This document shows positions 39,929 through 64,000 of a DNA stretch of 64,000 nucleotides, piece by piece. Position 1 is the stretch's first letter. The number at the start of each line of letters is the position of its first letter. The position numbers and the translations under genes are program-made. The stretch is from Gemmatimonadota bacterium (GTDB lineage: Bacteria; Gemmatimonadota; Gemmatimonadetes; Gemmatimonadales; GWC2-71-9). The stretch is from assembly GCA_003222195.1 (NCBI GenBank), contig QHVB01000030.1, forward strand, positions 1 through 64,000, in the 5' to 3' direction. Below the pieces are notes generated by a model. The model saw only the letters and a program-made list of their open reading frames with translations, ran no database searches and was not told the DNA's origin.

Positions 39929-41455
39929 GTGCGCGGGTTGTTCCTGGTGCTCTGCGCCGGCGTTGTGGCGTGTATTGGCGAGCGTGGGCCGCTCACGAAC
40001 CGGATGGCCCATTCCCCGACGACCTATCTTGCGCGCGCGGCGCGCCAGCCGGTGCGGTGGCAGCCGTGGGGACGCGATGCCTTCACGCTCGCCGCGAAAC
40101 TCGATCGCCCGATCCTGCTGTACGTCGGCAGCGATACCTGCCACTGGTGTGCCGAGACCGATCGCGCGATCTACACCGATCCCGAAATCGGTGCCCTCAT
40201 CAACACGCTCTTCGTCCCTGTTCGCGTCGATCGCGACGAGCGGCCCGACGTGGCGCAGCGCTACCAGGCGGCCGTCGAGCGCCTCGCAGGGTTACGGGGA
40301 TGGCCGCTCACCGTCTTCCTCACGGCGGATGGCTCGGCCTTTTTCGGCGGCACGTATTTCCCCGCGGATGATCCAATCACCGGACGTGGGTTGAAGCAGC
40401 TGCTCCCTGAAGTGGCGAAGAGCTATCGCGAGCAACGCTCCTTCGTCGTCCAGCAGGCGGCGCGGGTTCGCGAGCTCGTGCTCACGGGAAACCGTGAGCT
40501 CAGTGGAACACTGCGGCCTTCCCTGGTGCAGCAGGGAATCGTCGACGTCAGGCGCGATCTCGACGAGGCGGTTCGCAGCCGAACAGTTGCCGGGAATGTC
40601 ATGGACGCCCAGGCCGCGTCGCTGCTGCTCCGCGACACGACCGCCCGTGCGTCGGCGCTCCGGGCGCTGGATTTCATGCTCGACACAACCGCCGGGGTTG
40701 CCGGCGAGGATCCCGCGGGGCTGGTTCGCGCGGCCCTTGTGGGAACGGTCGCCGAGGCCTGGATCGTCACCGCCGACAACCACTACCGGGAAGCGGGCCG
40801 AGCCCTCGTGCGGAGCCTGGCCGACGAGCTGCCTTCCGCGGATCACGCCAGTTCCGGTGGCAGCCAGGCTGTCTTCACTGACCAGGAGGCGTACATCATC
40901 GAGAAGGTGCTGCTCGCCGCCGCCACGTTGGGTGAGTCGACAGCGACCCGGCGTGCGCGGGCGGCGCTCGATGGTGTCCTGCTGCGAACGTACGCGCGGG
41001 GCTGGGGCGTCCGCCACTCGGTTGCGCCGGGTCCGCGAGACAGTGGAACACCACCAGGTTTGCTGCAGGACCAGGTCGAGATGGCACTCGCCTGCATTGC
41101 AGCCCATCAGGTCAGCGGTGAAGGCGGTTATCTGGACGTCGCGCTCGACCTCGCCGCAGTCACAGAGAGTGGCTATGCCGATCCCGCGGGCGGCTACTTC
41201 GATATCGCGGATGCAGCGCCGTCTTCACTCCCCGGGCTTGCCGACCGGACGAAACACGTCCTCGATGATGTGCTGCCCGGCGCCAACGCCGGGACGGCAT
41301 TGCTCCTGGCTCGGCTCGCGCAGGTGACCGGCGACCAGGCGTACCGGCGTCGTGCTCAGCGCACGCTGGAGGCCTTTGTGGGGGCCATCTCCGGCACCGG
41401 TGTCCGTGCTGCGACGTATCTGGCTGCAGCACGAGAAACGCTGCAGATACCGTGA
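39929..41455 (+). CDS. DUF255 thioredoxin-like lipoprotein
   Basis: About 508 residues from a GTG giving a lipoprotein signal (AGVVAC, Cys15). Residues about 40-175 are a DUF255 domain: WQPWGRDAFTLAAKLDRPILL, the redox pair in CHWC, FVPVRVDRDERPDV and GWPLTVFLTADG with FFGGTYFP. The rest (about 230-500) is helical, like the alpha/alpha barrel of YyaL-type proteins. It might act on disulfides in the envelope. The start could lie elsewhere because the AGGAGG lies 14 nt upstream. Confidence 0.85.
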   Translation: MRGLFLVLCAGVVACIGERGPLTNRMAHSPTTYLARAARQPVRWQPWGRDAFTLAAKLDRPILLYVGSDTCHWCAETDRAIYTDPEIGALINTLFVPVRVDRDERPDVAQRYQAAVERLAGLRGWPLTVFLTADGSAFFGGTYFPADDPITGRGLKQLLPEVAKSYREQRSFVVQQAARVRELVLTGNRELSGTLRPSLVQQGIVDVRRDLDEAVRSRTVAGNVMDAQAASLLLRDTTARASALRALDFMLDTTAGVAGEDPAGLVRAALVGTVAEAWIVTADNHYREAGRALVRSLADELPSADHASSGGSQAVFTDQEAYIIEKVLLAAATLGESTATRRARAALDGVLLRTYARGWGVRHSVAPGPRDSGTPPGLLQDQVEMALACIAAHQVSGEGGYLDVALDLAAVTESGYADPAGGYFDIADAAPSSLPGLADRTKHVLDDVLPGANAGTALLLARLAQVTGDQAYRRRAQRTLEAFVGAISGTGVRAATYLAAARETLQIP

Positions 41456-41483
41456 CCAACACTGCCCCCCTGGGGTCCCTGTA

Positions 41484-42029
41484 ATGGTGAATGAAGACGC
41501 CGACGTAGTCGCCCGGGTGCTCGCTGGCGATGGGGAGGCGTTCGGGATTCTCATCCGGCGATATGAGCCGGGTCTGCTTCGCTTCGCAACGCGGATGCTC
41601 GGGAATCCCGACGCGGCGGCGGATGCGGTGGCTGAGAGTTTCGTGCGCGCCTATCGGCATTTGGCACAATGCCGCGATCCGTCGCGGCTGCGGAGCTGGC
41701 TGTACCGGATTACCGGGAATCGCTGTCGCAGCCATCTCGCCCGGCGGCACACGAACGACATTCCGCTGAGCGAGGCCCCCGCGCCAGCGCTGGCGGAGGC
41801 GTCGGACGCCTGGGAAATACTCGAGCGCAGTGAGCAGGTCGCACTCGTAGAGCGGGCGCTCGCGGCGTTGCCGGCCGAAAAACGTGAGGCGTTCGTCCTG
41901 AAGCACGTGGAAGGGATGAGCTACGAGGAGATGGCGGCGGTGACCGGGGCACGCATCCCCACGCTCAAGATGCGGGTGCATCGGGCGCGGGAAGCGTTGC
42001 TGGAGGCGCTGGAGGAGGTCGTACGATGA
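41484..42029 (+). CDS. ECF RNA polymerase sigma factor
   Basis: 181 residues. Region 2 (about 25-95): FGILIRRYEPGLLRFATRMLGNPDAAADAVAESFVRAYRHL-like. Region 4 (about 125-175): ALAALPAEKREAFVLKHVEGMSYEEMAAVTG and LKMRVHRAREAL. It directs polymerase to its own regulon. It is followed by a coupled membrane gene (ATGA overlap) that is the likely anti-sigma factor. GTG one codon later is an alternative start. Confidence 0.93.
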   Translation: MVNEDADVVARVLAGDGEAFGILIRRYEPGLLRFATRMLGNPDAAADAVAESFVRAYRHLAQCRDPSRLRSWLYRITGNRCRSHLARRHTNDIPLSEAPAPALAEASDAWEILERSEQVALVERALAALPAEKREAFVLKHVEGMSYEEMAAVTGARIPTLKMRVHRAREALLEALEEVVR

Positions 42030-42661
42030 GCCCAATTGATCCGCGGTTGCAGGAGGCGCTCGATGCGGAGCGTGATCCCGGCGAATTGCCGGCGGATCTG
42101 CGGGAGGCGTACGCCCGGCTGATGTCGGCGGCGGAGCTGCTCCAGACGACGCCAAGGCTGAGCGTCGCCACTCGCATCATGACGGAGATCGGCCGGCTCC
42201 CCGCGCCCGTTCACTCCGATGGTCCGATGCGCCGTATCATTCGCTGGTTCGGGCGGCCACGGGCTGTCACGCTGCGACTGCGTCCGGCCTGGACTCTGGC
42301 GCTGGCGGTCGGTCTCGGGGCGATGCTGCTGCTGTCCTTTCAGCAAGACTCGACTCCTACGCCCGGCGCGAGCGAGGGCATCGCGAATTTCATCGGTCAT
42401 TTCCCGGGAGCCACGTCGGTGGAAGTCGTCGGCTCGTTCAATAACTGGAGTCGCGGCGCAATCCACCTGAATGACGACGATCATGACGGCATCTGGCACG
42501 GTGCGGTGGTCCTGCCGGCCGGGGCGCACGAATACATGTTCGTCGTCGACGGCGAGCGCTGGGTGCCTGATCCACTCGCCGGCCGCTACGTCGATGACGG
42601 ATTCGGTGCCGGCCAGGAGAATTCGCTCCTCTTCGTGCGACCAGCGGCCGCGCAGCCATGA
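42026..42661 (+). CDS. Membrane anti-sigma-like protein with glycogen-binding-like domain
   Basis: 211 residues. The cytoplasmic N-terminal part (1-80) is helical, in the position of an anti-sigma domain but without the zinc HxxxCxxC motif. A membrane helix is at about 90-107. The periplasmic part (about 125-205) is a CBM48/AMPK-type domain: VEVVGSFNNWSRGAIHL, GIWHGAVVLPAGAHEYMFVVDGERW, PLAGRYVDDGFG. Overlaps on both sides (ATGA) link it to the sigma factor and a secreted protein. It may release the sigma factor in response to a polysaccharide (inference). Confidence 0.85.
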   Translation: MSPIDPRLQEALDAERDPGELPADLREAYARLMSAAELLQTTPRLSVATRIMTEIGRLPAPVHSDGPMRRIIRWFGRPRAVTLRLRPAWTLALAVGLGAMLLLSFQQDSTPTPGASEGIANFIGHFPGATSVEVVGSFNNWSRGAIHLNDDDHDGIWHGAVVLPAGAHEYMFVVDGERWVPDPLAGRYVDDGFGAGQENSLLFVRPAAAQP

Positions 42662-43311
42662 GGTGTAAGCTCTCCGTCGTGCTGGTGCTGGTCGCAGGCC
42701 CCCTCACGGCCCAAAGCGGATCGACCCGGCTGGCGGGCCGGGTCCCGGCGGCCGTGCTTCCGGCCATCGACTCCATCATCGGGACGGCACTCGCTGAGAG
42801 CCTGCCGACCGAGCCGCTCGTTCAAAAGGCCCTCGAGGGCAGTGCCAAGAACATTCCTCCTGACCGGCTCGTGAGCGGCGTCCGGCGCGGCCTGCTGCAG
42901 CTCCGCCAGGCGCGCATCATCGTGAGCCACGCCGTCCCCCAGGGCCAGCCGGTGCCGGAGGGGCATGTCGCTGCCGTGGCGGCGGCGCTCGCTCGCGGCC
43001 TTCCCGGGCCGATCGTGGAGCGGCTCCTGGCGATGGCGCCGAACGAGCCGCCTGGGCCCACGCTGCATGCGGCTGCCGACCTGGTGGCCCATCGCTTTGA
43101 TCCCGATTCCGCTGCGGAGCTGCTGCTGGAAGCGCATAACAAAGGCTTGCGGGGCGTGCGGTTACTCGATGTGGCCGTGGCCGCGGACCACGAGCTCCAG
43201 CGCCCCGGGGGCCGAACTCGTGCCGAAGCGATGGCCCACGTCAGGGCGATGTTGCCGAACGTGCCGGTGCCGGAATCGGCCGTGACGCGACATGGAACGA
43301 AGGGGTCGTAA
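42658..43311 (+). CDS. Secreted protein of unknown function
   Basis: 217 residues with a signal peptide (cleavage about 19, LTAQS). The rest is helical, Ala/Leu/Pro-rich and has no cysteines in the mature part. No family is recognised. It is coupled by ATGA to the anti-sigma-like gene, so it may be part of the same signalling unit or a co-regulated target. A weak hairpin, GGGTCG/CGACCC (43303-43320), spans its stop. Confidence 0.8.
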   Translation: MRCKLSVVLVLVAGPLTAQSGSTRLAGRVPAAVLPAIDSIIGTALAESLPTEPLVQKALEGSAKNIPPDRLVSGVRRGLLQLRQARIIVSHAVPQGQPVPEGHVAAVAAALARGLPGPIVERLLAMAPNEPPGPTLHAAADLVAHRFDPDSAAELLLEAHNKGLRGVRLLDVAVAADHELQRPGGRTRAEAMAHVRAMLPNVPVPESAVTRHGTKGS

Positions 43312-43338
43312 GAGCGACCCTAAACCCGAGGCTTTTTA

Positions 43339-43542
43339 ATGCTTCAGTCCGCACTCCTCCTCCTGGCTCTTGCTGGGCAACAGCCCACGCAACAGCCGGC
43401 CGCGGCGCCTGCGAAGCCCGCAGCGAACGCGTCTCAGCAGGCTGACACCTCCAAGGCGAAGCATCGCACGCGCCGGGCCCGCAAGGCGAAACCGGCGACG
43501 GCGCCCGCTGCTGCGCCGCGTGATACGACCAAGAAGCCCTGA
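43339..43542 (+). CDS. Small secreted Ala/Pro/Lys-rich protein
   Basis: 67 residues. A hydrophobic start (LQSALLLLALAGQQ) looks like a signal peptide, and the rest is low-complexity Ala, Pro, Lys, Arg and Thr. GAGG lies 8-9 nt before the ATG. It has no known family and could be a spurious frame. It ends next to argJ (convergent). Confidence 0.45.
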   Translation: MLQSALLLLALAGQQPTQQPAAAPAKPAANASQQADTSKAKHRTRRARKAKPATAPAAAPRDTTKKP

Positions 43543-63548: not shown

Positions 63549-63769
63549 TCGCCGAATAGCTCCCGCAGGACGCGCTTCTTGAGCTCCGCCGGCGCGCCCT
63601 GCGCGCGGCACCGCGCCCGCAGGAACTTCAGGAACAGCTCCTCGAAGTCGTACTGCTCTCCGCACGGCGGGCAGTCCTCGAGATGCTCGCGAATTTCCCG
63701 CTCGAGCTCGGGCGTCAGCTCGCGGTCCAGAAATTCATAGAGGTGCTCGACACACTCGCGACAATTCAT
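63545..63769 (-). CDS. Zinc-binding anti-sigma factor
   Basis: 74 residues. [18 protein letters not shown] and [18 protein letters not shown] give the HxxxCxxC zinc motif of the RsrA/ChrR class (mycothiol-system type). Thiol oxidation normally frees the sigma factor. It overlaps the sigma gene by ATGA. Confidence 0.94.
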
Positions 63770-64000
63770 GCAGGGCTTCCTTTGATGTATCCCATCTCGA
63801 CGGCGTAGTCGTAGAGCTTGCCTTGCAGCAACTGGCGCGCGCGAAACAGCCGCGACTTCACAGTCCCGACCGGGACTTGCAGAATGCCCGCGATCTCCTG
63901 ATACGACATCCCTTCGACATCGCTCAACACCAGTGTTTCGCGGAACGCCACCGGAAGCTGGTCGATCGCCCGGAGCACCTGATCATCCACGATCTTGTCG
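63766..64000 (-). CDS. ECF sigma factor, SigR/RpoE type (5' end beyond window)
   Basis: 78 C-terminal residues in view. They hold region 4: [48 protein letters not shown] in pattern, then [10 protein letters not shown]. The frame is open to the edge, so region 2 lies outside the window. It heads a seven-gene operon and likely controls it in response to thiol stress through the zinc anti-sigma factor. Confidence 0.93.

Follow-up and report, generated by a model that had tools for sequence, protein, structure and literature searches.

ECF sigma factors provide a main signalling route in bacteria. The closest described relatives of the system presented here are the anti-sigma factors RseA of Escherichia coli, RsiW of Bacillus subtilis and MucA, which have a helical N-terminal domain with the motifs LDGE (helix 1) and RVMA (helix 4), cross the membrane with one helix, are encoded behind an ECF sigma gene and act in autoregulated systems. 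The locus described here, from a Gemmatimonadota genome, has all of these features, with autoregulation as a prediction, but its anti-sigma factor carries a CBM48 domain as periplasmic part, many members of the family have the helix 4 part only, and the operon adds a third gene (gene C) and often an OMP-like protein with CBM48. The N-terminal domains of such proteins are class I anti-sigma domains (ASDI, the RseA/RsiW/ChrR/RskA type), in which zinc-binding and zinc-free forms are mixed across the tree, zinc-free forms are common, and helix 4 binds region 2 of the sigma factor (PMC7406223). About 79% of Gemmatimonadetes ECF sigma factors are linked to an ASDI, a bias called unexplained (PMC7406223).

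Anti-sigma factors with carbohydrate-binding modules have a known precedent in the RsgI proteins of Clostridium thermocellum, which are paired with SigI. These biomass sensors also join an anti-sigma domain to an extracellular carbohydrate-binding module through a single membrane helix and are a mechanistic analogue, but here the sigma factor is ECF, the N-domain is class I and not RsgI_N, the module is CBM48 and there are no cellulosome genes. Membership in SigI/RsgI was rejected on Pfam matches, with regions 2 and 4_2 of an ECF sigma factor found and no RsgI_N among the families matched by the 84 aligned members. FecI/FecR/FecA cell-surface signalling likewise has an ECF sigma factor, a membrane anti-sigma factor and an outer-membrane partner, for which there is a candidate in the present loci, although the OMP-like protein here carries a CBM48 domain. 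FecR-type membership was also rejected, as no FecR or STN Pfam match occurs among the 84 members, all of which carry CBM48. The glycogen-binding domain of AMPK beta shares the CBM48 fold and both stacking tryptophans, whereas the domain described here is fused to an anti-sigma domain, appears to be extracytoplasmic and has mostly Ala or Met in place of Lys126. A text search of a library of open-access papers returned no description of CBM48/AMPK1_CBM anti-sigma factors; the 2021 ECF re-classification may list the group. Very probably, the locus encodes an autoregulated module of an ECF sigma factor and a class I anti-sigma factor with an extracytoplasmic CBM48 sensor, from which the sigma factor would be freed by a ligand or a partner protein.

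Organization of the locus

The window, that is, the whole stretch of DNA analyzed (64,000 nucleotides), contains the following features of the cassette:

41452-41477, + strand: putative promoter P1, GTGAC-N17-GGTC (de novo motif upstream of homologous sigma genes)
41484-42029, + strand: ECF sigma factor, 181 aa, regions 2 and 4 only (Pfam Sigma70_r2, PF04542, 6.2e-16; Sigma70_r4_2, PF08281, 8e-15)
42026-42661, + strand: membrane/CBM gene (Pfam AMPK1_CBM 6.7e-9 and CBM_48 1.6e-7, both above the Pfam cut-offs)
42026-42283, + strand: zinc-free class I anti-sigma domain, presumably cytoplasmic, formed by residues 1-86 of the membrane protein (AF2 helices, family profile against the PDB)
42284-42334, + strand: single transmembrane helix, residues 87-103 (hydropathy and AF2)
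42374-42640, + strand: CBM48/AMPK1_CBM domain, residues 117-205, inferred periplasmic (Pfam, VIA-align, conserved tryptophans)
42658-43311, + strand: gene C, secreted all-helical protein, 217 aa, no Pfam model (AF2 model)
43282-43307, + strand: putative promoter P2, GTGAC-N17-GGTC, before gene D (same site in seven relatives)
43339-43542, + strand: gene D, small secreted Ala/Pro/Lys-rich protein, 67 aa (ORF conserved in relatives, signal-like N-terminus)

Three genes occupy 41484-43311 in the order ECF sigma factor, single-pass membrane protein with CBM48, and the secreted helical protein of gene C, and both gene junctions are ATGA overlaps of 4 nt. The Pfam matches and these overlaps bear out the first-pass annotation, made from the sequence alone, which had placed a sigma gene, a membrane gene and a coupled gene at these positions. 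Its proposal of one membrane helix also agrees with the hydropathy profile (residues 85-103) and the AF2 helix (residues 87-103), and the secreted protein that it saw behind the membrane gene corresponds to gene C, whose signal-like N-terminus, as read from the sequence, suggests export. Putative promoter P1 (41452-41477) and gene D with its own putative promoter (43282-43542) lie outside the region that it described. At the right edge of the window, a further ECF sigma gene and a gene for a zf-HC2 (zinc) anti-sigma factor are found on the minus strand, at 63662-64000 and beyond (G000:C48:63662-64272).

The AF2 model of gene C is all-helical (pLDDT 90.9, pTM 0.83). Pfam scans of gene C and of gene D gave no family for either. 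A known fold was sought for gene C and rejected, with no Foldseek match at E ≤0.001 and a best VIA-align Z of 9.7 to designed helical proteins, which is within the range of common helical arrangements.

The N-terminal anti-sigma domain

In the AF2 model of the membrane protein (pLDDT 85.8), helices 6-12, 23-40 and 47-57 lie on the presumed cytoplasmic side, followed by a linker helix before the membrane helix. A structure search with the full model returned a match list filled by the CBM domain, so the N-part was examined by sequence profile. The window's N-part alone matched the NCBIfam model NF052375 "anti-sigma factor" at E 9e-4, and a Pfam scan of it matched nothing relevant. As this single-sequence match is weak, the case for an anti-sigma factor is built on the family profile. 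When all PDB sequences were searched with a profile built from 31 long-form N-domains, RsiW (7.3e-7), RseA (0.0046), MucA (0.12) and another RseA-type entry (0.18) were the top four, followed by unrelated proteins. A profile of the zinc-free Gemmatimonadota members only, searched against the same set, again had RseA (0.007) and RsiW (0.011) as its first two matches. NF052375 matches 15 of the 31 long-form members, and the family shares with known class I anti-sigma factors the LDGE motif in helix 1, whose D13 is more than 90% conserved, and RVMA in helix 4. By family-profile homology, the N-part is thus assigned as a class I anti-sigma (ASDI) domain, which supports the anti-sigma role suggested for the membrane protein in the first-pass annotation.

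One claim of that annotation fails. It had taken the lack of a zinc motif to mark a different anti-sigma class. The motif H-x3-C-x2-C is indeed absent from the window's N-part, which has no Cys, but class I itself mixes zinc-binding and zinc-free domains across the tree (PMC7406223), and so the reading as a different class falls. The RsiW and RseA profile matches also rule out a separate class, as do the relatives with zinc: zf-HC2 is matched by 3 of 84 homologues, and H-x3-C-x2-C is kept in distant relatives with the same architecture and locus (for example L045 and L047).

In about two thirds of the members, the part before the membrane has only some 40-70 residues, and a single D-x-RVM segment resembling helix 4 is retained in most of these. 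The shortened N-parts are probably real, since their starts are pinned by the overlap with the sigma gene. A profile of the short-form N-domains found no anti-sigma match in the PDB. By analogy with helix 4 of class I domains, short-form members may bind their sigma factor at region 2 alone. Examples with the single helix-4-like segment, a natural minimal anti-sigma domain in an N-part of about 45-65 residues, include L014-L023, L120 and L132.

The CBM48 domain

The Pfam match of the membrane protein covers residues 119-179 (36.3 bits against a cut-off of 26.8). Foldseek and VIA-align both match residues 116-205 of the AF2 model to the AMPK beta CBM (PDB 1z0m), with a Z of 12.2 and an rmsd of 1.6 over 81 residues at about 31% identity. 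As far as a predicted model can say, this confirms the CBM fold of the C-terminal domain, in line with the CBM48/AMPK-like domain that had been proposed for the periplasmic side; a failure to fold as a CBM was not seen. In proteins of other genomes (L056, L060, L092, L097, L112), several CBM48-type domains occur in tandem.

In AMPK, the critical glycan contacts are W100, K126, W133 and N150 (PMC4032982; glycan contacts also in PMC2642990), and mutations of the contacts markedly lower binding (PMC2642990, PMC4032982). The equivalent of W100 is W141, kept in 84 of 84 homologues, that of W133 is W179 (73/84) and that of N150 is N199 (52/84). The K126 equivalent, residue 171, is Ala in 40 and Met in 22 of the 84. 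Glycan binding is plausible because the tryptophan platform is conserved, though the lysine is lost, and glycan sensing by the domain is to the same degree plausible from these residues.

Distribution and duplication of the cassette

With gene C as the lone query, homologues of it were detected in 183 of 298 Gemmatimonadota genomes. Of the 88 loci fetched in this way, 83 show an ECF sigma gene on the same strand, upstream of gene C, and the remaining five are truncated at a contig or locus end; the sigma/anti-sigma order with gene C is therefore kept wherever the contig allows (83/83). All 84 aligned membrane-protein homologues match CBM48/AMPK1_CBM, and together with the sigma gene upstream in every uncut locus this places the arrangement far beyond chance. 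In 78 of 107 cases, the membrane gene begins within the end of the sigma gene, with an overlap of 4 or 8 nt. An OMP-like protein that carries a CBM48 domain at its own C-terminus is also encoded in many cassettes, and 68/88 loci show a long ORF with such a domain. Given its strict co-conservation with the sigma/anti-sigma pair, our guess is that gene C could be a partner or accessory in sensing. The sigma gene and the CBM48 membrane protein also occur together in MAGs labelled Myxococcales (L050), Syntrophobacteria (L042), Desantisbacteria (L045), Clostridia (L047), Bipolaricaulota/Acetothermia (L057, L061-L064), Deltaproteobacteria (L065) and Atribacteria (L078).

Within the genome of the window, a search for CBM48 gave matches at six places. 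Three are the membrane gene of the window and two paralogues (C1 and C18), two are in longer secreted or OMP-like proteins that adjoin the C1 and C18 cassettes, and one is a weak match. All three cassette genes are paralogous between the copies, with identities of 42-48% for the sigma factor, 28-41% for the membrane protein and 30-33% for gene C. The three sigma factors are distinct among the ∼20 ECF-like matches in the genome, at 305-311 bits versus at most 131 with a profile built from these three. Outside the cassettes, CBM_48 is clear in one protein of the genome, an alpha-amylase-family enzyme. The family is a conserved and repeatedly duplicated sigma/anti-sigma family in Gemmatimonadota.

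Promoter motif and candidate regulon

A motif search without a prior pattern was run upstream of 107 homologous sigma genes, with shuffled sets as control. The pair GTGAC-N17-GGTC is present in 31 of the 107 upstream sequences, while any such pair reached at most 6 in one shuffled set. A fitted matrix (TGTGAC, 17-18 nt, GGTCTA-like), trained on the same sequences that it scored, exceeds the 99% level of Markov shuffles in 77/107 sigma genes. When the matrix was trained on one part of the loci and scored on the other, the motif was found in 36/64 and 16/43, with 6 and 15 matches on the reverse strand, part of them divergent promoters. About half of the 77 motif-bearing sigma genes (39, counted by rows) have exactly 8 nt between GGTC and the start codon. 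At this distance, transcription is expected to start at or beside the start codon, and the spacing suggests that the sigma transcript is probably leaderless. A putative promoter at its own start further predicts that the sigma gene is autoregulated.

In the window, P1 ends 6 nt before the ATG of the sigma gene (9 nt before an alternative GTG). Its -35 element overlaps the stop codon (41453-41455) of an upstream DUF255/thioredoxin-like gene. Only P1 (41452) and P2 (43282) score at least 15 on either strand of the 64 kb, and both are within the cassette. The pair is kept in seven relatives (L008, L009, L010, L012, L037, L039, L040), and coding constraint does not explain P2, because all or most of it falls outside gene C in L039 and L040. 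A small ORF with a signal-like N-terminus, as in gene D, follows P2 in six of them (L008, L009, L010, L012, L037, L039).

Each of the three cassettes in the genome has a sigma promoter and a second promoter of the same variant. The variant is GTGAC-N17-GGTC at P1 and P2 of the window cassette; GTGACG-N18-GGTAT in C18, before the sigma gene and before a divergent DUF4382 lipoprotein; and in C1, GTTACC-ACTCTTTA before the sigma gene and GTTACC-AATCTTTA before a divergent gene for a sigma-like protein with region 2 only. The latter protein (L001 2741-3068, + strand) has 108 aa and matches Sigma70_r2 at 8e-5, just below the cut-off; a region-2-only protein is also found upstream of the cassette in L049. 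Such proteins are possibly sigma mimics or anti-sigma decoys.

Across the loci, the motif also lies before gene C (8 sites), before the OMP-like CBM48 gene (4) and before DUF4382/DUF4397 lipoproteins. Lipoproteins of DUF4382 type (ACYQDD...LTDAPFPYDSV) are divergent from or near the cassette behind the same motif in L002, L011, L014, L016, L017 and L019, and further such loci are L020, L021, L023, L025, L159 and L162; Pfam confirmed the assignment for L002, L159 and L162. In L135, L138 and probably L143, a DUF4397 lipoprotein takes this place. Strict pattern searches of the window's own genome recovered the cassette sites of C18 and C1, with other matches near the control level. No carbohydrate enzymes were seen among the predicted target genes identified, and few are tied to the sigma/anti-sigma cassettes. 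From its predicted members, the regulon reads as one for envelope and secreted proteins.

Proposed mechanism and alternative explanations

The autoregulated sigma/anti-sigma module combines computed parts (gene order, anti-sigma homology, CBM48 fold and recurrent promoter motif) with inferred ones (sigma binding, topology, ligand, proteolysis and transcription start). In the resting state, the N-terminal helices of the membrane protein would hold the sigma factor. The input would come from contact of the periplasmic CBM48 domain with an alpha-glucan-like polymer or with a partner, for example the OMP-like CBM48 protein or the gene C product. This would lead to loss of anti-sigma activity, for which regulated proteolysis involving an RseP-type protease is the most likely route on the basis of family precedent; the genome has two M50-type proteases, which is permissive but not specific for it. 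The freed sigma factor would drive TGTGAC-N17/18-GGTC promoters, and with them its own operon, gene C, the OMP-like CBM48 gene, DUF4382/DUF4397 lipoproteins and small secreted proteins.

What the domain senses can be read in two ways. It may be a glycan sensor proper, where CBM48 binds an alpha-1,4-glucan (glycogen, starch, or a periplasmic or capsular glucan) and the binding itself frees the sigma factor, as plant polysaccharides do for RsgI. This is quite possible, at somewhat less than an even chance: the fold matches an AMPK beta CBM that was solved with cyclodextrin, and the equivalents of W100, W133 and N150 are kept, but contact mutations in AMPK markedly cut binding and most members have Ala or Met at the K126 position. 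Non-sensory CBM48 enzymes retain the FNxW tryptophan as well, and no amylases are among the predicted targets, which comprise lipoproteins, OMP-like proteins and small secreted proteins. The same lysine loss and envelope-directed regulon are in line with a protein sensor, in which CBM48 binds no sugar and contacts the OMP-like CBM48 protein or gene C, reporting the state of the outer membrane or of secretion in the manner of RseA, RseB and OMPs. The frequent long CBM48 ORF (68/88 loci), in some cases with a sigma promoter of its own, and the strict co-conservation of gene C fit this tentative reading, which we rate slightly lower, while the conserved tryptophan platform would be needless in a purely protein-protein role.

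It is very unlikely that the membrane protein is not an anti-sigma factor at all and is an unrelated or positively acting partner merely coupled to the sigma gene. The weak single-sequence match of the N-domain and the reduced N-part of most relatives would agree with such a partner, but the family profile finds RsiW, RseA and MucA first, finds RseA and RsiW again without zinc or foreign members, zf-HC2 is present in distant members, and the coupling to ECF sigma genes is universal. Extending the sigma/anti-sigma module, a speculative and rather doubtful possibility is a phylum-wide extracytoplasmic alpha-glucan-sensing sigma system in which the anti-sigma factor and a secreted or outer-membrane target share CBM48, an envelope regulon is controlled by leaderless autoregulated promoters, and zinc-binding three-helix anti-sigma domains have shrunk to a remnant resembling helix 4.

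Implications

The cassette defines a sigma/anti-sigma family with a sensory domain, for which a promoter and targets are predicted and which could be tested in a relative from Gemmatimonas (L076), a genus with cultured members. Among ECF systems, the family would correspond to the RsgI polysaccharide sensors, and the natural range from long to short N-parts could help to show how small a working anti-sigma domain can be. The Gemmatimonadota that carry the cassette are soil bacteria. With a CBM48 domain placed outside the inner membrane on the protein that would hold the sigma factor, the cell may switch on envelope genes when it meets a sugar polymer or a partner protein.
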